Source of the DNA: Eubacterium sp.
GTDB lineage: Bacteria; Bacillota; Clostridia; Lachnospirales; Lachnospiraceae
Assembly (NCBI GenBank): GCA_017539165.1
Contig: JAFYHN010000027.1
Location: 38,179 to 102,178 of the forward strand
Length of the DNA stretch: 64,000 nt
Direction of reading: 5' to 3'
How positions within the stretch are numbered: the stretch's first letter is position 1; each line of letters begins with the position of its first letter. A program made the translations under genes and the position numbers. Shown piece by piece: positions 2,530 to 15,587 of the stretch. The notes beneath the pieces were generated by a model. It was given only the letters and a program-made list of their open reading frames with translations. It was not told where the DNA came from and made no database searches.

Positions 2530-2570
2530 CGGTGCGTGGCTCAGTTTGGTAGAGCGCTGCGTTCGGGACG
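2530..2570 (+). pseudogene. 5' half of a split tRNA-Pro(CGG) gene (host copy)
   Basis: It has the acceptor strand CGGTGCG, a complete D-arm (GCTC/GAGC), the 5' anticodon stem CTGCG and the loop TTCGGGA, then diverges after ACG. The missing half is at 15248-15289, whose 3' anticodon stem CGCAG pairs perfectly with this CTGCG. It does not pair perfectly with the stem of the complete copy at 2612. The two halves are therefore one original gene interrupted by the element between them. Confidence 0.85.
2562..2570. other. attL core of the integrated element
   Basis: The nine bases TTCGGGACG (anticodon loop plus two stem bases) are shared with 15248-15256 and bound the element. The crossover lies somewhere inside this shared stretch. 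Sequence to the right (TCATGCTCG) departs from tRNA sequence. Confidence 0.75.
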
Positions 2571-2611: not shown

Positions 2612-2685
2612 CGGTGCGTGGCTCAGCTTGGTAGAGCGCGGCGTTCGGGACGCCGAGGTCGCAGGTTCGAATCCTGTCGCACCGA
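2612..2685 (+). tRNA. tRNA-Pro(CGG), complete copy carried by the element
   Basis: A full 74-base cloverleaf: acceptor CGGTGCG/CGCACCG, D-arm GCTC/GAGC, anticodon stem CGGCG/CGCCG around TTCGGGA (anticodon CGG), T-arm GCAGG/CCTGT with loop TTCGAAT, discriminator A. CCA is not encoded. It differs from the reconstructed host gene in the D-loop, anticodon stem and T-loop, so it is a homologous but distinct tRNA. It lies 41 bases inside the left end and would be transcribed from the promoter of the split host gene. A T-run follows at 2687-2693. Confidence 0.92.
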
Positions 2686-2787
2686 CTTTTTTTGCCCGAA
2701 TTCTAACTTTTTTCTAACTTTTTCGTTTTATTATTCTGGTTATTCCCTGATTATGAACTCATCTGTAGATCTTGTTTAGTTAATGTG

Positions 2788-3993
2788 TTACTGGTCGGTA
2801 TAATCCTTAAGTGGGATAATACCCTTCATCGTATCTGAGATTTCTTTCTTTGATTCTTTGTCTTTAACTTTTGCGTATATCCTGAGTGTTGTATCGATAT
2901 CTGCATGTCCTACCCATTTCTGTATACTTTTAACATCCATCCCCTGATGAACGAGTATTGATACACAGGAACTTCTAAGTCCGTGAAAGGAAATTTTCTG
3001 TGGCAGTTCAGGAATTTTTTTAATAAGTTTCTTGAACATCTTGGATGGATAATCTGGAAAAAACAAGGTTCCGTCTATATGTTTGAAAATATAGTCGCTG
3101 TCATAATACCCATTACCGCATAGCTTTCTGTTGGCTCTTTCTTTATTCTTAAGCTTCTTAAACATTTCAATCTGTTCATCCGTAAGAGGATATACTCTTG
3201 TACTAGAAGCTGTTTTGGTTGTATTGGTTCGATTTACCTTAGTACCAAACGTAACAGTATGGTTAATGCTCATGGTTTTATTTATGAAATCAATTGCAGA
3301 CCAACGAAGTCCTAGTACTTCTTCTCTTCTTAAACCAAAGAATATTGTAAGATAAAAAAGCTCGTATAATTCGTGGTATTTAATAGTGTTCAAAAAAAGC
3401 TGTGCTTCCTCATAAGAAAAGAATTCCTCATCTACATCTTTTTCTTTGGCGTATTTATCTGAAAGATTCTTATTAATTACTACTTCCTTGACAGGGTTGT
3501 AAGTGATGATTCCGTCTTTTACAGCTTGTTCCATTATAAATCCCAGAAAGACCTTTATATCTCTCACTGTTCTGTATTGAACATGATACTTTTCAAATAA
3601 GCCATCCAGGAATTCTTCAACCATGGTCTCATTTATATCTTTTACTTTTATATTTCCAAAGTATTCGTTAGTCCTTTTTAATCTATATAGATATGAGGCA
3701 TATGTTGAATCAGTGACTTCTCGTTTCTTTTTATTTATTACATAATCGGTATAACCACTAAAAGTTATACTTCTATCTATAGTTGACACAGTTATTTTAT
3801 TAAGCAGCTTCGCTCGCATCTCAGAAGCTTTTTTGATATTTTCCGGTATGTCGGTCAGACCAGTAGATATCCATTTCTTTTCAGCTTTTTTCTTGCCATC
3901 CTGTATTACGCTCTGTGTGGTCACAATATATAAATGACCGCTTTTACCTTGAATTCCCCTGGCTCTTTTTCCATCTTTTTTAGGTCTTGCCAT
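2788..3993 (-). CDS. int: Tyrosine site-specific integrase
   Basis: 401 residues, typical for phage/ICE integrases. The N-terminal part is an arm-type and core-binding (SAM-like) region. The catalytic domain shows Arg near 222 (FFGLRREEVLGL), H337-x-x-R340 (HGLR), H363 (GHADI) and Tyr373 (RIYAKV). It would catalyse recombination between attP and the tRNA-Pro anticodon loop. The gene lies 100 bases from the complete tRNA and points towards it, the usual arrangement at the left end of tRNA-targeted elements. GAGGAGGTGG precedes the ATG at 3993. The upstream xis-like gene ends at 3996, suggesting co-transcription. Confidence 0.95.
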   Translation of the reverse strand: MARPKKDGKRARGIQGKSGHLYIVTTQSVIQDGKKKAEKKWISTGLTDIPENIKKASEMRAKLLNKITVSTIDRSITFSGYTDYVINKKKREVTDSTYASYLYRLKRTNEYFGNIKVKDINETMVEEFLDGLFEKYHVQYRTVRDIKVFLGFIMEQAVKDGIITYNPVKEVVINKNLSDKYAKEKDVDEEFFSYEEAQLFLNTIKYHELYELFYLTIFFGLRREEVLGLRWSAIDFINKTMSINHTVTFGTKVNRTNTTKTASSTRVYPLTDEQIEMFKKLKNKERANRKLCGNGYYDSDYIFKHIDGTLFFPDYPSKMFKKLIKKIPELPQKISFHGLRSSCVSILVHQGMDVKSIQKWVGHADIDTTLRIYAKVKDKESKKEISDTMKGIIPLKDYTDQ

Positions 3994-3995
3994 AG

Positions 3996-4208
3996 TTAGC
4001 CCACCTCCTCAGTATATTTCATATCCGGATAGATAAACTCCAGAAGATAATTCTTCGGTATTCGATATTTCTTACCAATCTTTATTGAACGGATCTTTCC
4101 TTCTGCAAGATATTTATATACGGTATTGCGTCCTATATGTAATATCTTTTGAACATCTTCAGGTAAGAGTATATCTTTATACTCACTTAACATTTTTGTA
4201 TATTCCAT
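3996..4208 (-). CDS. Excisionase-like helix-turn-helix DNA-binding protein
   Basis: 70 residues, a MerR/excisionase-type winged HTH (LLPEDVQKILHIGRNTVYKYL, then IRSIKIGKKYRIPK). Proteins of this size immediately upstream of a tyrosine integrase usually act as recombination directionality factors. GGAGGAAG precedes the ATG at 4208; an internal ATG at 4193 is possible but lacks a site. It overlaps the upstream small gene by 22 bases and abuts int, so the three genes form one unit. Confidence 0.85.
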   Translation of the reverse strand: MEYTKMLSEYKDILLPEDVQKILHIGRNTVYKYLAEGKIRSIKIGKKYRIPKNYLLEFIYPDMKYTEEVG

Positions 4209-4360
4209 GTATTCTTCCTCCTTCTATTCTTTCTGAATTCATTGATGATCTCCTTTACGGCCTCTCGTGGTGTTGGATCATTTATTCCACACATATCTTT
4301 GAGGTCAAGCATTTCTTCTTTTAATCTGCGGTTTGCCCGCTGTCTCTGTCTATTTTTCAT
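4187..4360 (-). CDS. Small basic protein of the integrase operon
   Basis: 57 residues, very rich in Arg/Lys (starting KNRQRQRANRR and ending near RKNRRRK), with the middle predicted helical. I recognise no domain; it may be an accessory DNA-binding protein. I placed the start at 4360 because GGGAGAG lies just upstream; the longer reading frame to 4450 has no ribosome site. Its 3' end overlaps the excisionase-like gene, consistent with translational coupling. Confidence 0.6.
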   Translation of the reverse strand: MKNRQRQRANRRLKEEMLDLKDMCGINDPTPREAVKEIINEFRKNRRRKNTWNIQKC

Positions 4361-4658
4361 AACTCTCCCTTCCGGGGTTAACCTAATAACCCCTTTATAT
4401 GTTAACGACGACATCCGATTTCCGGGAAACGACGGGTTCTTACGAACCAATACGGTTTATTCTGAACTGTCTAGTTCTTGATAAGCACTATATAGTTCTT
4501 TAATCGTACTATATCAGTTTAAATAGTCCTTGCCAAGCACTCAACAGTGCTTTTTGACAAAATTTGTTCTCTGGCAGCATTAATTTGTGCTTTATAATGA
4601 TAATTGATTGTGTTAATATGTTTATTATATAAGTCTTTGTAGTAAAGGAGATTTCGGT
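4361..4658. promoter_or_regulatory. Divergent control region between int operon and XRE regulator
   Basis: About 300 bases separate the leftward recombination genes from the rightward XRE gene. They contain a perfect hairpin AAGCACT-CAAC-AGTGCTT followed by a T-run (4536-4555), a TTGACA at 4554-4559, and two near-repeats AGTTCTT with TACTATAT/CACTATAT cores (about 4471-4515). These could be operators for the XRE protein; no single promoter stands out. Confidence 0.45.
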
Positions 4659-5273
4659 ATGATAGTGGTAAATAACCCATTCGGACAGGATCTGGTGGAT
4701 TTTAATGAAGAAACTGAGGCAGATAGAATTGGATCAAGAATACGTACAATAAGAACCGCAAGAGGCTTATCACAAGCTGAACTTGGCGAAAAGGTTGGGC
4801 TATCGGCTGACAGGATACAGAAATATGAGAATGGCGCAAGAAAGCCTAAAAATGATATGTTAAAAAGACTTGCAGATGCGCTGGAGGTACGTCCTCTTGC
4901 ACTAACTGATCCGGTTACAATAAGTTATATAGGAGCAATGTACGCTTTTTTTGAAATGGAAAGATCATTTCATATCGGGGTTGACAAGACTCAGGAAGAG
5001 CTATCGATTTCTATTGATTCCCAGAGCGAGCTATATAGATATATAGATGAGTGGTATAAGGTATATAAAAAAATGAAATCTGATATGGAACTGGCTTCTT
5101 CTGATGAGGAAAGAAAGAATATTATGGATTCGTATCATAATTGGGAATGGAATTTTCCATCAAAGATAATTGACAGAACAGAATTAAGACAGCAAAAGAT
5201 TCGTATAAAGCAGAAAATAGAGGAATTACAGGAAGCATATGATCAGTTAGATCAGGAAGATGACGAAGAATAG
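4659..5273 (+). CDS. XRE-family transcriptional regulator
   Basis: 204 residues. A classic Cro/C1 HTH lies at about residues 22-78 (IRTIRTARGLSQAELGEKVG, then IQKYENGARKPKNDMLKRLA). An uncharacterised C-terminal region follows, ending in a charged helix (residues 165-204). AAAGGAGA lies 7 bases before the ATG. It is divergent from int-xis and followed after 56 bases by the DUF1016 nuclease, so it probably represses one or both. The C-terminal half could sense a ligand or partner, but nothing shows this. Confidence 0.88.
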   Translation: MIVVNNPFGQDLVDFNEETEADRIGSRIRTIRTARGLSQAELGEKVGLSADRIQKYENGARKPKNDMLKRLADALEVRPLALTDPVTISYIGAMYAFFEMERSFHIGVDKTQEELSISIDSQSELYRYIDEWYKVYKKMKSDMELASSDEERKNIMDSYHNWEWNFPSKIIDRTELRQQKIRIKQKIEELQEAYDQLDQEDDEE

Positions 5274-6509: not shown

Positions 6510-7247
6510 ATGCGTAAGAAAATATTTGATGTAATAGAAAAATCTGAATATAGAAATCGTATCGGCGTTGCCTATGATTATGCTATGCTTATAGTTATTA
6601 CAGTAAGCCTGATTCCGTTGTTCTTCAAACAGGATAACATAGGGTTTAAAGTGATTGATAAGGTTACGGTTGTTATTTTCATTATTGATTATATTCTTAG
6701 ATTAATGACAGCAGATTATAAGCTTAAGAGGGGAAAAACCTCATTTATTATATATCCATTTACATTTATGGCTATTATTGATATGTTGTCCATTCTTCCT
6801 TCATTATCAATTATCAGCAGAGGCTTTAAAGCATTAAGAGTGCTTAGAATGATCAGAGCTATGAGGGTGTTTAGAATCTTTAAAGCAATGAGATATTCAA
6901 AAAGCTTCATACTTATTGGAAATGTATTAAAAAAGTCTAAGGATTCATTAATAGCTGTATGCGTGTTGGCTTTTGGATATATCTTGATATCTGCTCTGAT
7001 TATATATAATGTTGAACCTGATACATTTGATTCGTTTTTTGATGCTTTATATTGGGCTACTGTTTCTTTAACAACAGTAGGATATGGAGACATTTATCCG
7101 GTATCAATTATGGGGAGAATAATAACAATGGTTTCTTCGATATTTGGTATTGCTATAGTTGCTCTCCCTGCTGGTATTATTACGGCTGGGTATATGACAG
7201 AGATTGATAAAAAAATCGATGGAATAGAGAAAGATAAAAAAGAATAG
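6510..7247 (+). CDS. Voltage-gated-type potassium channel subunit
   Basis: 245 residues with six membrane segments. S4 carries regularly spaced arginines (about residues 104-128: RGFKALRVLRMIRAMRVFR). The pore has the K+ selectivity filter TVGYGD (189-194), followed by S6. A short charged cytoplasmic tail ends the protein and there is no RCK domain. It would assemble as a tetramer in the membrane and pass K+. GTGGTGAG precedes the ATG. It follows the nuclease gene by about 50 bases in the same direction. Ion channels are unusual as mobile-element cargo; some defence systems use membrane pores as effectors. Confidence 0.9.
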   Translation: MRKKIFDVIEKSEYRNRIGVAYDYAMLIVITVSLIPLFFKQDNIGFKVIDKVTVVIFIIDYILRLMTADYKLKRGKTSFIIYPFTFMAIIDMLSILPSLSIISRGFKALRVLRMIRAMRVFRIFKAMRYSKSFILIGNVLKKSKDSLIAVCVLAFGYILISALIIYNVEPDTFDSFFDALYWATVSLTTVGYGDIYPVSIMGRIITMVSSIFGIAIVALPAGIITAGYMTEIDKKIDGIEKDKKE

Positions 7248-7260
7248 GAAGAATATAGAA

Positions 7261-7296
7261 ATAGTGAAGCATGTCTTAAGAACATGCTTCACTATT
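7261..7296. terminator. Bidirectional terminator between channel gene and HTH gene
   Basis: ATAGTGAAGCATGT (7261-7274) pairs with ACATGCTTCACTAT around CTTAAGA, a perfect 14-bp stem, with TTTATTTC following on the plus strand. It lies between converging genes and overlaps the last codon of the minus-strand one. Confidence 0.8.
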
Positions 7297-7534
7297 TTAT
7301 TTCTTGTTCAAGTGATTCAAAAATAGGATCATTAAAAAAATCAGTAAGAGTTATCTCAAGACCATCACAAATCTTTTTTATGGTTAATATAGATATATCT
7401 CGTCTTGTTTCATCGGTCATACTATAGATTGTCGATGGTGTTATTCCAGAGATATTGGCTAATTCATTTAGTTTAATATTCCTCTGATTACAGATAGAGA
7501 TTATTCTTTTAACAACTGCATCTTTTGCGTTCAT
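7292..7534 (-). CDS. Small XRE-type HTH regulator
   Basis: 80 residues, essentially one Cro/C1 HTH (AVVKRIISICNQRNIKLNEL, then SGITPSTIYSMTDE) with a short C-terminus (TLTDFFND). The frame is open to 7597, but the ATG at 7534 is preceded by AGGGTG and begins the conserved domain. It is divergent from the zinc-ribbon gene at 7656. A palindrome between them overlaps that gene's -35 box, so this protein is the likely repressor. Confidence 0.8.
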   Translation of the reverse strand: MNAKDAVVKRIISICNQRNIKLNELANISGITPSTIYSMTDETRRDISILTIKKICDGLEITLTDFFNDPIFESLEQEIK

Positions 7535-7579
7535 ATTTGTCACCCTATTGCATTGTAGGAAAATATACGCGATAGAGTG

Positions 7580-7615
7580 TACGCACTTGCGTAACAAAAG
7601 CTTATAAAGTATAAT
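7580..7615 (+). promoter_or_regulatory. Promoter of the zinc-ribbon gene with overlapping palindrome
   Basis: TTGCGT (7587-7592), 17 bases, then TATAAT (7610-7615). The -35 box lies inside the 14-base palindrome TACGCA-CT-TGCGTA (7580-7593). Related half-sites TACGCG (7566) and TACGTG (7617) flank it. Confidence 0.6.
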
Positions 7616-7655: not shown

Positions 7656-8966
7656 ATGAAATGTCCTAATTGTGGTGCAGATATTGAGCAGAACAGTAGA
7701 TTTTGTTCATATTGTAATTCACCTATTACTATTGAAATGCAAAGAACTCAGGAACAGCTAAATAAAAGCGGATGTCCCAAGTGTGGAAGTACCAATATTA
7801 CTTTTAAAAGGGAAAATCAAGGTGAGGTAAGAGGAAAAAAGGGAAAACAAATTGTCCATAAAACAGTAGGTTTTTGTAAAGATTGTGGATATACTTGGTA
7901 TCCAAATACTCCTGTGAATCAACAGAAAAGCGGTAGTAAAATGTGGCTATGGGTGCTTGGATGGATCTTCATTTTTCCAGTTCCACTCACTATATTGATG
8001 CTTAGAAATAAAGAAATGAAACCAGCTATCAAGTATGGGGTTATTGCTGCTGGCTGGATAGTATATCTGATTATTGGTTTAGCCGGCGGTGGTGGAAAGA
8101 ATAGTAATACAAATACTAATACAAATTCAAGTACAGGTACAACCGATAACAACGTAGTAGCTGATGTTGCAGATACTCCAGAGGATCAGTTAAATGATCT
8201 TGCAATAGGTGATTCAGTTACAATTAGAGGAGTTACTGTTACAGTAAACTCTGTATCAGATACGGAAACCTCAACAGGATCTCCAGCATTTGAGGTTTCA
8301 GTTACATATTCTAATCATAGTGGAAAACGTGTTTCTGCAAGTCCATATGACTGGACTACTGTTCTGCATACAGGATCTGATAAAGCATATGTAGGGGGAA
8401 AAGGTAGTTTTAATACAGAAAGTATTTCAGATGGTGAAGAATGGACAGGTGTTGTTACTCTTTGGAATGAAGATAATTCAGAAAAAATAAAATTTGAGTC
8501 TAGCAGTTTAAATCTTGCTCAAGATAAAGATCTCTCTGCTACATGGCTTCTGCCTAATAGTACTTCTAAAGAAGGAGCAAAAGAAGCTTCAGAAAGCGCT
8601 GTAGAAGAAAGCAATAATCAAGAATCACAATCTGAGGAAAGTTTTGATTTTACTATTACAGTAGGTCAGGCTGGAGATTATGGGTTTGAAAATACATTGA
8701 ATGCTGGAACTGAACTTGAAGAAACACAGATAGTTTATCATATACCTGCTGGAAAGTATAAGGTTAAGTATATGGGAACAAACCAAGGACAAATGGGGGC
8801 TTGCAGTGATAGCACTCATAAAACTGAGGAAGGTTGGGAAGAACCCGAAGATACTCAATCAGCTATTATTCTTAAACCAGGTGAAATAGTAGATTTAGAT
8901 ATCCAAGATGGCTACTATTTAGAGATACATGCTGATGGACAGTTAGGTTTTTCTAAGTCTGAATGA
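7656..8966 (+). CDS. Double zinc-ribbon membrane protein of element cargo
   Basis: 436 residues. Two zinc ribbons open it: C3/C6/C17/C20 and C40/C43/C74/C77. Two membrane segments follow (about 96-115 and 125-144), then a Gly/Asn/Thr linker. A beta-rich domain resembling DUF4352/DUF5067-type extracytoplasmic modules comes next (about 175-290), and a second beta-rich C-terminal domain (about 325-436). GGGAGGTG precedes the ATG. It is transcribed alone from a promoter with an operator-like palindrome and ends at a strong terminator. The role is unknown. The ribbon-plus-TM layout resembles the protein at 107-1936 but the exported parts are unrelated by eye. Confidence 0.85.
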   Translation: MKCPNCGADIEQNSRFCSYCNSPITIEMQRTQEQLNKSGCPKCGSTNITFKRENQGEVRGKKGKQIVHKTVGFCKDCGYTWYPNTPVNQQKSGSKMWLWVLGWIFIFPVPLTILMLRNKEMKPAIKYGVIAAGWIVYLIIGLAGGGGKNSNTNTNTNSSTGTTDNNVVADVADTPEDQLNDLAIGDSVTIRGVTVTVNSVSDTETSTGSPAFEVSVTYSNHSGKRVSASPYDWTTVLHTGSDKAYVGGKGSFNTESISDGEEWTGVVTLWNEDNSEKIKFESSSLNLAQDKDLSATWLLPNSTSKEGAKEASESAVEESNNQESQSEESFDFTITVGQAGDYGFENTLNAGTELEETQIVYHIPAGKYKVKYMGTNQGQMGACSDSTHKTEEGWEEPEDTQSAIILKPGEIVDLDIQDGYYLEIHADGQLGFSKSE

Positions 8967-9016: not shown

Positions 9017-10288
9017 TTAATATCCCCTATATCGTTTACAACCTCTGACATATGCACGGAAGCCACTGTAAGAAAGGTGAGCTATTATATTTAATAATAT
9101 TAGGTTTACAGGAATCAATTGCTTGATTTCTTCTGAAAAAAATATTGTCAATGCCAAAACTATTACAGCAACCCATAATGAGATACTGTCAGATATTTCT
9201 TCCTTATACCACGTAATATATTTCTTCGCTGATAAAAATGCTATTATGATTGGAATGGATAGAATTATAGCTGAGATTAATAAAAATATTAGCCAGTACA
9301 GTATATTTTGAATAACTATATTATCTATTCGTGTGCTTATAACTGCAGTTGATTTTCCGGCTTTTATAGTAATATCTCCATATTTTATAATAATATTGGT
9401 AAATGTTGTCAGGAATTTTAAGATGTCAATTTTGAAAACATCAGATTTAGCCGCCATGAGCAGTGTTACGATGGCAGCATAAAGTATGCTACTGAAAAGC
9501 TGAGTGTTCAGAGCGGTATTTCGGGCTATATATACAGCCTTTAGATTAGCATTTTTCTTATCGTATTTTTTATCTAAACAGATTTTGCGTTTCTTATATT
9601 TAAGCTCGGCACTTTCTTCTATATACTTATCCTGTTCACTTATCTTACGGTTATATTCTCCAATCTTTTTCTTCTGTAGATCAGTATAATAATCAAGTAA
9701 CTGACCTTTTCCTTTATATTCATCTCTAACGGCTAAAACCTCGGCTTCGCACCTTCTTTTTATCTCGTTCGATTCTTTCTCGCGCTGCTTGTCTTTCTCT
9801 TTCAGCTGCTCGTTCTCTTTCAATACTAAGTCGGCACCGCTCAGCTTCCCTATTTGCTCGTTCAACGATACTATCGTTTCGCTTTTCTTCTGAAGCTCCT
9901 TCCTGAGAATTGAGTTCTCTGATGAAAGACTCTGTATCATTTTGATATCCATCTCTCTGCCGTTCATTTGAAGTTGCTCCAGTTCTGATGCTACTTGGTC
10001 TATTTGAGTCTGGAGATTCTTCAGGGTCTGGTTTTGATTCTGAATAGTTTCTGACAGCCTCTGATTCTCGGATGATAGCTTCTGAATCTCTTCTGACTGT
10101 TTCTGAATTTCGTCTTTCTGTTGCTGTATTTTCTCTGACTGCTTTTGCATTATCAATTCCGATTCCTGCTGACTCGACTTCTGCATAATATCTTTCATAT
10201 TCTGCTGCTCTGAGTTTTCTGGCAGCTTCTCTTTCTTTATCGGCTCTCTGATCAGCGAGTCTGACCTCATTCTGTTTTTTAAATTCAT
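9017..10288 (-). CDS. Coiled-coil membrane protein (DUF6040-like) overprinted on relaxase
   Basis: 423 residues. Residues 30-240 are a long Gln/Glu/Lys heptad-rich coiled coil (repeats of QKQSEEIQ type); three or four membrane segments follow in 265-410. It resembles the DUF6040 proteins found beside relaxases in Clostridia elements. The first 563 bases overlap the 3' end of the relaxase in another frame on the same strand. A perfect AAGGAGG at 10298-10304 sits 9 bases before the ATG, inside the relaxase gene, which supports real translation. It may link the relaxosome to the membrane, but that is inference. Confidence 0.75.
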   Translation of the reverse strand: MNLKNRMRSDSLIREPIKKEKLPENSEQQNMKDIMQKSSQQESELIMQKQSEKIQQQKDEIQKQSEEIQKLSSENQRLSETIQNQNQTLKNLQTQIDQVASELEQLQMNGREMDIKMIQSLSSENSILRKELQKKSETIVSLNEQIGKLSGADLVLKENEQLKEKDKQREKESNEIKRRCEAEVLAVRDEYKGKGQLLDYYTDLQKKKIGEYNRKISEQDKYIEESAELKYKKRKICLDKKYDKKNANLKAVYIARNTALNTQLFSSILYAAIVTLLMAAKSDVFKIDILKFLTTFTNIIIKYGDITIKAGKSTAVISTRIDNIVIQNILYWLIFLLISAIILSIPIIIAFLSAKKYITWYKEEISDSISLWVAVIVLALTIFFSEEIKQLIPVNLILLNIIAHLSYSGFRAYVRGCKRYRGY

Positions 10289-11084
10289 GTATTAATGCCT
10301 CCTTGCTTACGTTCAGACCTGTGAAGGTCTTTTCGATATTTGTATCACGGACTTTATTTCCATTTTCATCCTTAAATACTATGTGTTTTCTGTTATCTTT
10401 CCATATTACAGACCAGCCCCTCTGCTGCATTTCAGATATGAACTCTTCGCGACTAGCAGATTGTGGGATGGATTCCATCAGGGCAATTGCACAGACTGCT
10501 ACAAAACTGTTTTTGGATTCATTGATGAGCAGGTTGTACTTATCCTGATTCCATGCCATTATCTCGCCCTGTTCTATAAGTGATCCGTCAAAATGTTTTC
10601 CTTTTTCTGCTACACTTAAACCATATTCAAGACAAAGCCTGTTAGTATAGTCTTTCTGTTTTTGAAGATCCTTTTTTGTCTGATGCAGCTTATGACCATC
10701 TATATATGATACGGAGTTTGTGACGATATGCCCATGCAGGTGATCTTTATCCTGATGGACGCCAATTACATATTGGTGTTCTGGAAAAAAATGTTCTGCG
10801 AACTGTTTACAGATTTTCAGAACTTCTTCAGGTGATATTTCTTCATCCTTATGAAAGCTGATGATGTTATGTGCATACATTCTGCCGGAATCTTTATCCC
10901 AGATATATTTTTCCTTTAACCAGGTCTGATACAATTCGTCATAATTGACTGTTTCACCGGAATAAGGTCCGGCTATAAAGACATAACCTTCCTTTATTTT
11001 TTCATCACGAAGAACATATTCGAGAACATTTCTCATGGCTCCGTGACTTTTTGTTGATTTATTAACGACCTTATTGATTGCCAT
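9726..11084 (-). CDS. mobA: MobA/VirD2-type relaxase
   Basis: 452 residues. The N-terminal relaxase domain (about 1-250) has the metal-binding histidines H110, H115, H117 and H119 (HQDKDHLHGH) and a likely catalytic Tyr in the first 50 residues. The C-terminal 180 residues are highly charged (Glu/Arg/Ser), and their DNA also encodes the coiled-coil protein in another frame. It would nick oriT and lead strand transfer with MobC. AGGAAAG precedes the ATG. It overlaps mobC by 52 bases, so they are translationally coupled. With no coupling protein or pilus genes here, it needs a helper conjugation system. Confidence 0.92.
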   Translation of the reverse strand: MAINKVVNKSTKSHGAMRNVLEYVLRDEKIKEGYVFIAGPYSGETVNYDELYQTWLKEKYIWDKDSGRMYAHNIISFHKDEEISPEEVLKICKQFAEHFFPEHQYVIGVHQDKDHLHGHIVTNSVSYIDGHKLHQTKKDLQKQKDYTNRLCLEYGLSVAEKGKHFDGSLIEQGEIMAWNQDKYNLLINESKNSFVAVCAIALMESIPQSASREEFISEMQQRGWSVIWKDNRKHIVFKDENGNKVRDTNIEKTFTGLNVSKEALIHEFKKQNEVRLADQRADKEREAARKLRAAEYERYYAEVESAGIGIDNAKAVRENTATERRNSETVRRDSEAIIRESEAVRNYSESKPDPEESPDSNRPSSIRTGATSNERQRDGYQNDTESFIRELNSQEGASEEKRNDSIVERANREAERCRLSIERERAAERERQAARERIERDKKKVRSRGFSR

Positions 11085-11425
11085 ATACTTTCACTTTCCT
11101 TTCTGTAGTTACTAAGCTGATAAGATAGTTTTTCCAATTCTATTTTATTCGGGATTAATCCCTGACCATTTGCGATATGTGCCATCTGATTAACATTGGT
11201 TGCCAGACCTCTGAGCTGACATTCAAGATTAGAAAATGTCATGCTGATATTCTTTAATACGGCGATTTCTTCAGATGGTGTGATGGTTGCATTCCGGACA
11301 GAACTTATGATGTATGCCTGCTTTGTTAGTCCGGTTTCTTTTACTCTGTTAATGAAGTCATCATACTCTGATTTATTCATTCTTACGGTGACGGATATAT
11401 TTCTTTTGCGATTTGTTTTCTGCAT
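11033..11425 (-). CDS. mobC: MobC-like relaxosome accessory protein
   Basis: 130 residues. It has an N-terminal ribbon-helix-helix-like segment (ISVTVRMNKSEYDDFINRV) and a C-terminal helical part typical of MobC (NLECQLRGLATNVNQMAHIA). MobC proteins bind oriT and help the relaxase open DNA. AAGGAGA precedes the ATG at 11425. It is the first gene of the mobC-mobA-DUF6040 unit, and a hairpin-rich region lies just upstream, as expected for an adjacent oriT. Confidence 0.88.
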   Translation of the reverse strand: MQKTNRKRNISVTVRMNKSEYDDFINRVKETGLTKQAYIISSVRNATITPSEEIAVLKNISMTFSNLECQLRGLATNVNQMAHIANGQGLIPNKIELEKLSYQLSNYRKESESIWQSIRSLINQQKVTEP

Positions 11426-11911
11426 ATTTCTGTATCTCCTTTTTTGAATTGTGTTTCTGTAAGTAAAAATCTGTTACGTATATTTCTGTAGTGCAGGATT
11501 CCAAAGGGAAGTTTCCCTTTGGCGGGATGCAAGGGCAGCGCCCTTAGACTGCCTGGCGAAGACAGCCAAAATTATCCGGTGGATGATTTTAGTCGTTTTT
11601 GTCAAGTGGTCGGCTCCGGTGTGCAGAGGGTGAAACCCTTGCTGGGGGATCCAAGGGGGCAAAGCCCCACTGGCAAGTTTAGTGAAATCGGGAAAGCCTA
11701 ACGGCTTTTTCGATGAAGCGGTGCGTTGTGGCTTGCCACAATGCGAAACTTGCCTAACTACCCGAAGCCGATTTAGGAGCTTAGGCGGTCGGCGCAGGGG
11801 AGTTAGTGGTTTTGCGATTTGCCCGTGAGGAAGATGCCTGATGACGGAGGGGAGAGCTAAAATATCGGTTTCGAAGGAAATGATATTTTGCTCGATAATA
11901 CGTCAAATGAA
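11426..11911. other. Hairpin-rich region, candidate oriT or structured RNA
   Basis: About 490 bases with no credible gene and visibly higher GC than its surroundings. Perfect or near-perfect hairpins include AAAGGGAA/TTCCCTTT (11503-11520), AAGGGC/GCCCTT (11531-11545), GGGGC/GCCCC (11656-11668), AAGCC/GGCTT plus T-run (11694-11710) and a 10-bp GCGTTGTGGC/GCCACAATGC (11723-11744). Its place upstream of mobC suggests oriT, and lying next to a replication polymerase it could also hold an origin. I cannot identify a nic site. Confidence 0.4.
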
Positions 11912-11949
11912 GATGCAGCATAACAGTCCGGTGAACTGTTTGCTGCATC
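11912..11949 (-). terminator. Hairpin just after the DNA polymerase gene
   Basis: GATGCAGCA (11912-11920) and TGCTGCATC (11941-11949) form a perfect outer stem, with AACAGT/ACTGTT inside. It lies 8 bases beyond the polymerase stop. There is no long T-run on the minus strand, so termination strength is uncertain. The inner part resembles the ACAGTCCGGTGGACTGT hairpin at 15414-15436. Confidence 0.5.
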
Positions 11950-11956
11950 GAAGTGT

Positions 11957-14900
11957 TCAGGCATCTTTCGGTTCGGGAAGAAATAAAACCGATGCTGGTT
12001 GCACCGGTTTTGTTTCTGGTAAATCGCCACGGCTGTCTTTTAAGCCGTGTATATCTGCAGAGGATAAACTTGATGATATGGAATTGATCTTTTGTAATGT
12101 TTCTTCGACAATTTCCCTTGGCAGCATATTATCCTGCCTTTTTGATCGGGAACAATTCTTCCAGTCGTTAATGGTTATGGTTGATATTCCCCAGCTGTTT
12201 ACAACCTTGATGATTTCAGACTGCTTAAGACCATCAAGAACAGGAATCTGATATAAGCCTGAACGATATCCCATAAGTATGGAAAGCAGGATTTTTCGTG
12301 GCAGATCTTTTCCTATGTATCCTTTGGTTTGTACTGTAGATTTAATCTTTACACGTTCTAGATCGGCAGTAACTTTTACACAATCTTCATTCTGCATTGT
12401 ATTTCGATAATTAAGGAATTCCTCAATATCATTGAATGGACGAGTATCATATTCAGCGATTACAGTATCAACTACATACTGACCATCTGCACTCTCATAA
12501 TGAACAGGTGTATCAACTGCTGTATCAACTAAAGGACAGCGTTTATAATCAAAATTCATGGATAACTGCCTGATGGTTTCAGTCACATGGAAATCATGTT
12601 TTCGTTCAACTATTTCAGAAAATTCCGTCCATACCTTAGTGTGGCATTTTAGTCTTCCTTCACGAGACAGTACAGCGATTATATAGGCATCTCTGTCTGC
12701 CCGGCTGTCCTTTATTTCTCCGGTTGTATATGAGTTATGGGCAAGTACACCTTTATCATTTACAGCTACATTTCCACGTGTAGTAATATTGAGAAATGTG
12801 TCATTAAAATGCTTTGGTTCCCACACCTGATTTGCTTCACATTTATCACGAGTCTGATTTAGTATATAGCGACCATCCTGAAAAATTTGTGCAAAGCCAT
12901 AAGCATCCAGGCCTCTTACTACATCTGTCGGAGCATCTGTAATGAATCCATCTGTAGTGACGGAGTATACATGGTATCCCATATCATGAAGCTGATTGAT
13001 ACAGGCTATTAGCATGCATCTGACAAGTGCTGTGGTATATGTTGCATGATATGGACTTGTGACGGTGGATGGTTCAGCATCGACACGCCCCATTGTTTTG
13101 GCATTATATCTTGTTTTAGGACTTACATTTTGTGCTGTCTTTCCGTAGCAGCTGTTTACCATTGTCTTAAGACTTTTCTCGACAAGTGGATTATCTTTAT
13201 ATTCGATTTTAGCTCTCATTCTGTCCTGCACGAGATTCGTGACAGCATAAGCAAGACATTGAGAAGGCTTTCCGTCTTTTTCAAGCATCATGCAGGTAAA
13301 TCCACGGAATACTTTAATCCTGGCACCAAGCTTTAATGCTAGGTACATATCAGGACCAGCCATATATACATTCCTTCCGTGTTTGGGATATATCTTCATA
13401 CCGCCTTTGACAGGAACAGGGATGTTAGGGCAGTAACATTCATCCGGAAAATCAAAATCACCCACTGCCACAGCTGGAATAAGCGGGTTCATCAGATCCT
13501 GCCATGTAAGCTCATAATTACGAGGAAAATCTCGCACATTCTGATTCCAGTCGATGTCAATGATATTTGCCATTGCGGTAGGATAGGCATTCTGTAGATC
13601 AAAGTCAGTGGTTTTTTCAGTTATCCATCCAATATAAAAGGAAGCATTAAACCCTCCGGTATATGCTTCCTCAAAATATTCCGATACCAGTTTTGCATCC
13701 GGATTATCCCTGATCGGAACATATCTGGTTGCTTTTAAGAATTTCATACATTCATCTTTCGATGGTATTACACCTTCATCTAACATTTCCAAACCTCTGT
13801 ATATTCTGTCGTAGTCAGATTTTTTCGTTACTCCAAAATACTTTTTTATGCTGCCATACATAGATGATGCTGCAGCGCTGGAAAGTGTCATGGGAACCTG
13901 GCGGTTACATCTGAACAGTTCTGAACAGAAGGAAACCACGATATCCGCATCATTCATGGCATATTTGTAATATTCCACCGGATTACTGACTGCAAATGCA
14001 GCCATATGTTCGATAACTCTGTTTGGAAGTTCTATTTTAGGCCGGTTTATTACCTTGCCTAATGCTTTAAGAGATTTGTTATCAGCAGGAGTGAGCCCCA
14101 GAGTATCTCTTATACAGAGGTTAACAAGCCAGTAATAGTTATAGTGCGAATCGTTTTCTGCTTTAAGATGAATATTTTCAGTAGTCATCCATCCACCTTG
14201 TATTTCTCCCAGCTTTCTAAGAAGGTCGATATCGTATTTTGATCTGCGAAAGACGGAGATATCGGCTTTACCTGTATGGCAGATAAGAGTAATGGGGATA
14301 ACAAAGTCCTTCAAAGCGGTAAAATCTACAACCTTGAAGGACTCATTATTCTTCCATTTTTTATTTTTGTATATTAAATCTTCCTTTCGGACGAGAGGGA
14401 AGTTTGGAAAGTGGAACTTCTTTAAATCATCAAGTATATCAGCTATACAGTACTTAAGAGGTATCATTCCACCTTCGGCAGTTACTTCCTGAAATCTCGG
14501 TGTTACAAGGAAGAAGTATCTGATAAGTGTTTCTCCTATTGCGATAGTCAGCTGCAGGGATAATACACGGCGATTCTTTCCGGATCCATCTCGGTAATCC
14601 TGGAATTCTGTATCAAAACCGATATTAAGGCACATGCTGTCAGACTGTATAACCTTAAATGACGGAATCACATTTGCAATACTTTTCGCCTTCTGAATAT
14701 CCAGTGGTGCAAGAAAAGGCTTCCGGTAGGAAGTGGTGTCGGTGTCATTTACAGTTATTGCACCGCATAAGGGTGAAATGACACCACTGCCTTCAGTCCT
14801 TGTATTTACTGTGTTTGATGTATTTCCTGTCTGACGGAACTTTGCATCTTCCGTCAGATTTCCTGGCACTACTATTTCCTTTAGTAGTGCATATTCATCC

Positions 14901-15052
14901 CTGCCTTTCAGATACTGACATCCATATTTCAGAAGCTTTTGGACGATTTCATGATGATGATCATAAGTCCATATTACATCTGACAAGGGTTCTGTATTAT
15001 AGGCAGGAGGAATATAAGTATTTAGTTTTAATGCTGTTGTTCCATTTATCAT
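11957..15052 (-). CDS. Family B DNA polymerase, piPolB-like
   Basis: 1031 residues. The 3'-5' exonuclease motifs fit D147-x-E149 (GFDTEF), the 258-266 region and YKYAMNDAD (362-370). The polymerase part has YTGGFNASFYIG (464-475, a YxGG-like motif), motif A DFDLQNAYPTAM (483-494), motif B KTMVNSCYG (629-637) and motif C TTDG (699-702) in place of the usual DTDS. As I recall, a TDG motif C marks the primer-independent PolBs of pipolins. No terminal protein or primase gene is present, which suits self-primed replication. GGAGAGA precedes the ATG at 15052. Alternative: a protein-primed plasmid/phage-type PolB. Confidence 0.88.
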   Translation of the reverse strand: MINGTTALKLNTYIPPAYNTEPLSDVIWTYDHHHEIVQKLLKYGCQYLKGRDEYALLKEIVVPGNLTEDAKFRQTGNTSNTVNTRTEGSGVISPLCGAITVNDTDTTSYRKPFLAPLDIQKAKSIANVIPSFKVIQSDSMCLNIGFDTEFQDYRDGSGKNRRVLSLQLTIAIGETLIRYFFLVTPRFQEVTAEGGMIPLKYCIADILDDLKKFHFPNFPLVRKEDLIYKNKKWKNNESFKVVDFTALKDFVIPITLICHTGKADISVFRRSKYDIDLLRKLGEIQGGWMTTENIHLKAENDSHYNYYWLVNLCIRDTLGLTPADNKSLKALGKVINRPKIELPNRVIEHMAAFAVSNPVEYYKYAMNDADIVVSFCSELFRCNRQVPMTLSSAAASSMYGSIKKYFGVTKKSDYDRIYRGLEMLDEGVIPSKDECMKFLKATRYVPIRDNPDAKLVSEYFEEAYTGGFNASFYIGWITEKTTDFDLQNAYPTAMANIIDIDWNQNVRDFPRNYELTWQDLMNPLIPAVAVGDFDFPDECYCPNIPVPVKGGMKIYPKHGRNVYMAGPDMYLALKLGARIKVFRGFTCMMLEKDGKPSQCLAYAVTNLVQDRMRAKIEYKDNPLVEKSLKTMVNSCYGKTAQNVSPKTRYNAKTMGRVDAEPSTVTSPYHATYTTALVRCMLIACINQLHDMGYHVYSVTTDGFITDAPTDVVRGLDAYGFAQIFQDGRYILNQTRDKCEANQVWEPKHFNDTFLNITTRGNVAVNDKGVLAHNSYTTGEIKDSRADRDAYIIAVLSREGRLKCHTKVWTEFSEIVERKHDFHVTETIRQLSMNFDYKRCPLVDTAVDTPVHYESADGQYVVDTVIAEYDTRPFNDIEEFLNYRNTMQNEDCVKVTADLERVKIKSTVQTKGYIGKDLPRKILLSILMGYRSGLYQIPVLDGLKQSEIIKVVNSWGISTITINDWKNCSRSKRQDNMLPREIVEETLQKINSISSSLSSADIHGLKDSRGDLPETKPVQPASVLFLPEPKDA

Positions 15053-15247: not shown

Positions 15248-15256
15248 TTCGGGACG
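15248..15256. other. attR core of the integrated element
   Basis: TTCGGGACG, identical to 2562-2570. Sequence to the left (AATAATA) is not tRNA-like; sequence to the right continues as the 3' half of tRNA-Pro. Confidence 0.75.
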
Positions 15257-15289
15257 CAGAGGTCGCAGGTTCAAATCCTGTCGCACCGA
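15248..15289 (+). pseudogene. 3' half of the split tRNA-Pro(CGG) gene
   Basis: It contains the loop TTCGGGA, anticodon stem CGCAG, variable AGGTC, T-arm GCAGG-TTCAAAT-CCTGT, acceptor CGCACCG and discriminator A. Joined to 2530-2570 it rebuilds a perfect 74-base tRNA. It is followed by its own terminator, as a normal tRNA gene would be. Confidence 0.85.
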
Positions 15290-15292
15290 CAC

Positions 15293-15335
15293 AAAATGAA
15301 ATGGATGTCCAACGGACATCCATTTCATTTTTGCG
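15293..15335 (+). terminator. Terminator of the original host tRNA-Pro gene
   Basis: AAAATGAAATGGATGTCC pairs perfectly over 18 bp with GGACATCCATTTCATTTT around AAC, 4 bases after the tRNA 3' half. Confidence 0.85.
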
Positions 15336-15587
15336 TCGATTTAAAAAGTTAAATCCTGCGACTTCTGCTTGAGTGAAAGCAGTTGTTCGGGCGCGGAGGG
15401 ACGACGCGTAAAGAAAACAGTCCGGTGGACTGTTTTTAGCGGAGTCCACGAAGGGCTATGCCCGAGGGCGGACCGTGGTTCAGATACAAATTATCATTTC
15501 CCAATGAAAACGAAAAGTGTTATACTTTTTAATTGTTGGAGTATGTTGTTAACCACTTCAGTTATAAGTGTTAGGAGGTTTTTATTT
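15336..15587 (+). promoter_or_regulatory. Structured leader region before the nitroreductase gene
   Basis: No credible gene. Two hairpins stand out: AAAACAGTCC-GGT-GGACTGTTTT (15414-15436, perfect) and GGGC-TAT-GCCC (15453-15463), within unusually GC-rich sequence. A TATACT -10-like box lies near 15522, and AAGTGG/CCACTT-like repeats lie near 15553-15570. The open frame through it is not coding by appearance. Confidence 0.4.

Follow-up and report, generated by a model that had tools for sequence, protein, structure and literature searches.

Among the described systems most like the element reported here are the pipolins of Escherichia coli (Flament-Simon et al., 2020; PMC7385651), whose primer-independent family B DNA polymerase (piPolB) carries the same motif C sequence, SVTTDGF, and which likewise encode tyrosine integrases and a helix-turn-helix (HTH) protein. 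The YPE12 copy lies near a tRNA-Leu gene with restriction-modification genes and tyrosine recombinases nearby, a setting that agrees with the published E. coli pipolins as far as excerpts of that article describe them. We have analyzed a 64,000-nucleotide stretch of contig JAFYHN010000027.1 (positions 38,179 to 102,178; hereafter the window) from Eubacterium sp., a member of the Lachnospiraceae, and conclude with high confidence that it contains a 12,686-bp pipolin that is integrated and probably mobilizable, and for which a cycle of excision, replication and transfer can be proposed. The element has the hallmarks of a pipolin, with a piPolB gene between attachment (att) repeats, a tyrosine recombinase and insertion in a tRNA gene, and in that sense it is a known kind of mobile DNA; less ordinary are the split host tRNA gene and the element's own whole copy. 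The original prediction, a 12.7 kb pipolin proposed from the letters alone, agrees with the measured core-to-core length, and its interpretation is supported overall by the sequence comparisons below.

Two stretches carrying E. coli pipolins have no annotated relaxase or MobC, although they are perhaps not whole elements. A relaxase gene is annotated on all five small piPolB plasmids compared (pSE-12228-03, pLME300 and those of S. warneri and Fusobacterium), and mobC on two of the five. These plasmids are circular, with a recombinase-family gene annotated in 2/5, whereas the element in the window is integrated and has a tyrosine integrase and an excisionase. The protein-primed family B polymerases (pPolBs) of phi29 and PRD1 share with the window enzyme the family B core including Exo I-III and a similar spacing of motifs A and B, but their motif C is DTDS, they lack the first Asp of the motif A DxD, and their profile score is far lower. 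Casposons, defined by a Cas1 integrase, are set apart by the integrase alone: that of the window belongs to Phage_integrase, and Pfam gave no Cas1 match among the element open reading frames (ORFs) scanned.

Placement of the polymerase among piPolBs

The family B polymerase with a TTDG motif C that had been predicted from the letters is encoded by a single uninterrupted frame:

11957..15052, minus strand: piPolB of 1031 residues, ATG start, no internal stops; assigned by motifs, profile and tree

Motifs A and B, YxGG and the exonuclease motifs, all named in the original prediction, were located by alignment with known enzymes. Motif A is D483-x-D485, motif B contains K629, YxGG is present, and motif C is T699-T-D701-G (TTDG at residues 699-702). 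The 3'-5' exonuclease residues of the piPolB type are all kept in the sequence (Exo I D147/E149, Exo II D264, Exo III Y364/D368), and proofreading is predicted. Motifs A and B are 145 residues apart, compared with 137 in E. coli piPolB, 135 in phi29, 121 in PRD1 and 75 in Pol II, a spacing that fits a TPR2-like insertion. Pfam returned DNA_pol_B_2 at E=2.3e-4, under its cut-off, and PHROGs returned phrog_11768 DNA polymerase at E=2.4e-13; an NCBIfam scan of the polymerase gave no family match. The gene appears to be under purifying selection, with dN/dS of 0.027 and 0.036 in the two of nine comparisons with computable dS, figures that are rough given synonymous sites near or past saturation in all nine. 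Because of the Pfam, phrog_11768 and pSE-12228-03 matches together with this selection, the polymerase is more than a chance ORF.

To place the enzyme we built a profile from 72 piPolB-like proteins, which include neither the window polymerase and its near clade nor the two E. coli polymerases; the bit scores given here come from this profile and not from the published ExplorePipolin one, for which an excerpt of PMC9710591 gives a cut-off of 1e-50. The window polymerase scored 781 bits, against 760 and 725 for the two polymerases from E. coli pipolins; the pPolBs scored 38 (PRD1), 27 (GC1), 8 (phiEFM13), 7 (phi29) and 2-3 (CH17P1 and Trapezoid), with no score returned for DU_PP_III, and Pol II of E. 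coli, the only rPolB control, scored 0.4. A quick tree of 92 rows put 85 piPolB-like rows on one side of a branch with support 100, and within them the window and 12 close relatives formed a 13-row clade, also with support 100. After E. coli and Pol II sequences were added (95 rows), 87 piPolB-like rows stayed together with support 99, read after re-rooting. Excluded from tree and profile were 11 of 80 loci with a polymerase frame under 850 residues and the Pseudosulfitobacter plasmid L005; the Salinivibrio-order loci L102, L104, L106 and L108 were left out, and the 87 rows correspond to 85 distinct sequences (L148 equals L017, and L149 equals L034). The set is anchored by S. epidermidis and L. 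fermentum plasmids and E. coli elements, species that are named in the excerpts of PMC9710591 and PMC7385651. Both the profile search and the phylogeny, which had been suggested as checks, thus put the window enzyme with the piPolBs and apart from the pPolBs tested, and the candidate assignment holds: by sequence it is a piPolB, not a pPolB or rPolB.

The original prediction took TTDG as an unusual clue. On these alignments it is instead the piPolB family norm, found in 85 of the 87 piPolB-like rows with VTDG in the other two, and its reading as a sign of something unusual was rejected; the controls have DTDS (7/7 pPolBs and 1/1 Pol II). An excerpt of PMC7544198 likewise describes piPolBs without the first Asp of motif C. 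An Asp two residues ahead of the catalytic Asp of motif A is present in 87/87 piPolB-like rows against 0/8 controls. This extra Asp may compensate for the absent motif C Asp, and the contrast may itself stem from one ancestral change.

A pPolB element with a terminal protein, perhaps an unrecognized one, would be the obvious alternative, and a reverse profile built from the seven pPolBs does still score the window at 28 bits (E=3.3e-6). Against this stand the 781 bits from the piPolB-like profile, TTDG where all seven pPolBs have DTDS, and element ends that are integrase core sites inside a tRNA gene. No Pfam match to a terminal protein or primase was found in the 12 main element ORFs and one 62-residue ORF, nor any NCBIfam or PHROGs match in the ORF subsets scanned (small overlapping ORFs lay outside the scans), in keeping with the predicted lack of both. 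The outcome that would have counted against a piPolB, a position inside the pPolBs together with a terminal-protein gene, was not seen in the tree or the ORFs scanned. A tblastn search of 50,697 phage records with the polymerase gave no match at E 0.01. Protein-primed identity was rejected on this phage-record null, the profile scores and motif C, and we regard such an element as very improbable.

Relatives of the polymerase have a patchy distribution. By tblastn, 44 of 72,556 plasmid records matched (30 Pseudosulfitobacter, 10 Staphylococcus and 4 Fusobacterium), among them pSE-12228-03 of S. epidermidis ATCC 12228 (E=2e-33), and two viral-contig scans gave no relative. Two short peptide patterns, run against 84,980 genomes (one for each species), picked out 129 stretches, 86 of them with relatives, of which the best 80 of 86 were kept, so that counts are lower bounds. 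Twelve loci (L012-L023) have polymerases 75-88% identical to that of the window in the best segment; they are mostly labelled Lachnospiraceae, otherwise Bacillota or Thermoflexaceae, and include Porcincola intestinalis, Lachnospiraceae MA2020 and RUG10588. The other kept relatives come from Bacillota, Actinomycetota, Pseudomonadota and further groups. When 397 genomes of the family, 392 of the order and 398 of the phylum were sampled, a full-length polymerase was found only in the window's own genome; counting that genome each time, any match was seen in 2, 4 and 1 genomes, respectively, the four other sampled genomes having weak partial matches of 39-77 model positions. The genus sample gave 5 matches in 61 genomes, again including the window's own: one 82% identical (G1437), two distant relatives and one partial. 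The polymerase genes of genus-mates G1437 and G1413 are those of L017 and L034, whose records carry Lachnospiraceae in the title, which places the host of the window in this family. Among 5,426 E. coli genomes, 299 matched the DNA of L101; E. coli genome searches using L082, L103 and L107 gave no match. A larger, later pipolin survey reportedly exists, and Lachnospiraceae pipolins are thus not claimed as unreported. The string 'Lachnospir' is absent from the main text of PMC7385651 and PMC9710591, and excerpts of PMC7385651 report that pipolins in general are patchy.

Element ends and the two tRNA-Pro genes

Three tRNA features define the ends of the element:

2530..2570, plus strand: 5' half of host tRNA-Pro(CGG), interrupted within the anticodon loop, with the attL core TTCGGGACG at 2562-2570
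2612..2686, plus strand: complete element-borne tRNA-Pro(CGG), assigned by end analysis and comparison with the joined host gene
15248..15290, plus strand: 3' half of host tRNA-Pro, with the attR core TTCGGGACG at 15248-15256

From the core at 2562 to that at 15248 the element measures 12,686 bp. Joining the flanks at the 9-bp core (with 15257-15289) gives a 74-nt tRNA that is exact in four of eight genus-mates checked (G1444, G1440, G1432 and G1455) and was not found in the other four (G160, G1408, G1421 and G1447), the eight being a subset of the 55 of 61 genus-mates with a match. In G1444, G1440 and G1432 the sequence that comes after the intact tRNA resembles the right flank (76-82% over 225-239 bases), as at an empty site. 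Compared with the joined host gene, the complete tRNA has 4 differing positions out of 74, two of which lie on opposing sides of the anticodon stem, and it is the only CGG gene among the tRNA-Pro genes found in the genome, the others being AGG and TGG. From these sequences, the host tRNA-Pro(CGG) gene is split in its anticodon loop and the whole tRNA-Pro belongs to the element. The predicted insertion in a tRNA gene thus stands, but tRNA-Pro 2612-2686 is not the rebuilt target, whose halves lie at 2530-2570 and 15248-15290; the earlier reading had missed both the split host gene and the complete element-borne one.

A 43-nt tRNA repeat (2644-2686 and 15248-15290) was considered as the pair of attachment sites and replaced by the 9-bp core at 2562 and 15248. 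The longer repeat would shift the left end 82 bp into the element, onto the wrong tRNA gene, and software that looks for a tRNA plus a fragment would be affected. According to the Islander paper (PMC4383910) and an archaeal integrase review (PMC8371274), the tRNA gene used as target is restored on integration, the island in the former bringing the missing tRNA fragment. The element departs from this published rule: after the host 5' half come a 41-bp spacer and a complete tRNA. No case of a whole spare tRNA on an island surfaced in a narrow literature search, which is not proof of absence.

This arrangement might also have arisen from two successive insertions or a rearrangement, rather than from a single element with a spare tRNA. 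Partial tRNA repeats do occur in the tRNA-Pro region of the genus, and in G168, of another genus, a 57%-identical integrase adjoins a whole tRNA-Pro(AGG), and no 5' fragment was seen in about 190 bases upstream. We nevertheless consider such a history improbable, given the 74-nt tRNA formed by the joined flanks, which is present exactly in half of the genus-mates checked, and the recurrence of 5' half, spacer and complete CGG tRNA in G1446 and G1417, where the left end is 87-88% identical over 171-175 bases and, in G1446, has an integrase 53% identical to that of the window alongside. With somewhat more confidence than doubt, we favor a single pipolin that replaces, rather than repairs, the host tRNA-Pro(CGG), together with the proposal that the extra motif A Asp may offset the lost motif C Asp.

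The ends of other loci were compared in the same terms. ARAGORN found no tRNA-Pro in 28 loci scanned, including L012-L023, several of them on short contigs, and L012-L023 contained no relative of the window integrase at E 1e-4. Exact direct repeats of at least 16 bases around the polymerase were found in 3 of 22 relatives: L015 has one of 99 nt and L023 one of 22 nt, and the 16-nt repeat of L016 is likely a chance match. L023, from RGIG406, is a broken piPolB locus flanked by its 22-nt repeats near a tRNA-Arg gene, and may be a relative in decay that sits at another tRNA.

Separately, diverged repeats of about 200 bp lie 3' of tRNA-Pro in some genus-mates (window 15293-15480; G1417:C20, G1444:C11 and G1440:C1); they hold a AACAGTCCGGTGGACTGTT-like hairpin, and some copies also have a piece of the tRNA-Pro 3' end. 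A 20-nt hairpin (19/20 bases) is present at 11922-11941, after the polymerase gene, and at 15416-15435 in the right flank, outside the element.

The mobility module and the role of the polymerase

The relaxase and MobC of the original prediction were recovered as Pfam matches, as was the tyrosine integrase described below. Together with a DUF6040 protein they lie 3' of the polymerase on the same strand, with a conserved block in the gap between the polymerase and mobC genes:

11619..11761, minus strand: candidate origin of transfer (oriT) block, conserved; the outer repeat GGCAAGTTT/AAACTTGCC flanks the hairpin TTGTGGCAAGCCACAA (11726-11741)
11033..11425, minus strand: MobC/NikA-like relaxosome accessory protein (Pfam NikA-like 2.4e-10, MobC 2e-6)
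9726..11084, minus strand: relaxase with MobA/VirD2-like nuclease domain (Pfam Relaxase 5.4e-30)
9017..10288, minus strand: DUF6040 protein (DUF6040 1.4e-36)

From its position and structure we infer that the block acts as an oriT. Exact copies of the left arm GGCAAGTTT occur in all 10 loci that were compared. The right arm AAACTTGCC is exact in 8 of them, as is the inner 12-mer GTGGCAAGCCAC, which occurs in 7 of the 8 close loci with mobC and relaxase relatives. These eight, out of 12 close loci, have both relatives beside the polymerase (L013, L014, L015, L017, L018, L020, L021 and L022). MobC and relaxase relatives also adjoin the polymerase of L024, and in L070 they lie about 8 kb off on the opposite strand. 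None was found in the broken L023 (21 kb) or on the contigs of L012 and L019 (3.9 and 5.3 kb). The DUF6040 and relaxase frames of the window share 563 bases; of the 10 distinct loci listed, 8 have an inner frame that begins, with MN[LI], 793-808 bases into the relaxase gene (the window, L015, L017, L018, L020, L021, L022 and L157, with L013 and L024 not resolved). The DUF6040 match is that of the window frame alone, linked by tblastn to L015, L017, L020, L021 and L022. Overlapping frames of this kind presumably recall mobA/mobB pairs, and the DUF6040 protein, coiled-coil-like with hydrophobic segments as judged by eye, is putatively MobB-like. On this gene content the element is probably mobilizable.

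These same genes raise the alternative that the polymerase is a passenger on a relaxase-driven mobilizable island, serving host DNA-damage tolerance or another side task. The 2017 piPolB paper by Redrejo-Rodriguez et al. is said to have proposed a damage-tolerance role for piPolBs, and the genes for MobC, relaxase and the DUF6040 protein are carried by the element. Purifying selection on the polymerase is compatible with a passenger and with a replicative role alike. However, piPolB also lies near a relaxase gene on plasmids from other phyla and genera, and its place beside mobC and relaxase in 8 of 12 close loci suits a replication-transfer module. We therefore judge a passenger role unlikely, although it is the most serious of the alternatives weighed here, and prefer an element that is copied by its own piPolB.

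Several points weigh against the overall reading of the locus. The element could be moved by its relaxase and MobC with no part played by piPolB, and MobC and relaxase relatives were not found on the 23 kb contig of L016, which has a full-length polymerase. Sequence search of solved structures with the window polymerase gave nothing at E 1, and profiles only matches of E about 0.6 and above. The proteins seeding our profile were themselves named piPolB by similarity, and the trees have long branches and a long-branch-join warning, their deep order not being trustworthy. The window enzyme, with 1031 residues against 866 in E. coli piPolB, shares only about 22% identity with it over aligned positions. 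The piPolB group is reported to begin DNA synthesis without a primer; because of the low identity and the quick long-branch trees, we infer this capacity by analogy for the window enzyme.

Integration genes, cargo and the proposed cycle

The rest of the element holds integration genes, regulators and cargo:

2788..3993, minus strand: tyrosine integrase, 401 residues (Pfam Phage_integrase 8.4e-22)
3996..4208, minus strand: excisionase-like HTH protein, 70 residues (HTH_17 7.8e-13; TIGR01764 excise 1.6e-9)
4187..4450, minus strand: ORF of 87 residues, no assigned function; relatives in G1446 (87% over 69 residues) and L022 (59% over 51 residues)
4659..5273, plus strand: Cro/C1-type HTH regulator, 204 residues (HTH_3 1.5e-14); relatives in L018, L022 and L155
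5330..6457, plus strand: cargo, YhcG/DUF1016 PDDEXK nuclease (YhcG_C 7.2e-55; PADLOC PDC-S02 6.6e-120)
6510..7247, plus strand: cargo, voltage-gated-type ion channel (Ion_trans 6.3e-28)
7292..7597, minus strand: HTH regulator, 101 residues (HTH_26 3e-10)
7656..8966, plus strand: cargo, zinc-ribbon protein (Zn_Ribbon_1 1.9e-7; DUF4352 4.1e-5, below cut-off)

The YhcG/DUF1016 nuclease belongs to a candidate defence family, PDC-S02. The family matches of the element ORFs include no drug-resistance gene, no resistance library having been searched. In a neighbouring element, G1446:C43 (L144), the excisionase is 93% and the small ORF 87% identical to those of the window, and the integrase just 53%, a pattern that by sequence points to gene exchange inside the integration module.

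In the cycle we propose, integrase and excisionase would recombine the two 9-bp cores, releasing the element as a circle and rejoining the host tRNA-Pro. The piPolB would then begin synthesis on element DNA with no need of a terminal protein or a separate primase, copying the element with proofreading and strand displacement. MobC and relaxase would nick the oriT-like block, and one strand would be moved by the transfer machine of a helper. After arrival in a new host, the circle would enter the anticodon loop of tRNA-Pro(CGG) and split the gene, whereupon the element's complete tRNA-Pro(CGG), if expressed, would take over.

The locus provides a complete, delimited pipolin from a gut-type Lachnospiraceae host, within a clade of 75-88% identical piPolBs in which the order of piPolB, oriT-like block, MobC and relaxase is conserved. 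This conserved module makes it testable whether primer-free synthesis and conjugative strand transfer cooperate. Whole-tRNA replacement is a twist on the use of tRNA genes by islands. If it is true, the host would be deprived of its CGG tRNA whenever the element was lost imprecisely, because the element copy is the only CGG tRNA-Pro found in the assembly, and precise excision would restore it; the cost could be small, as the TGG tRNA perhaps reads that codon too.

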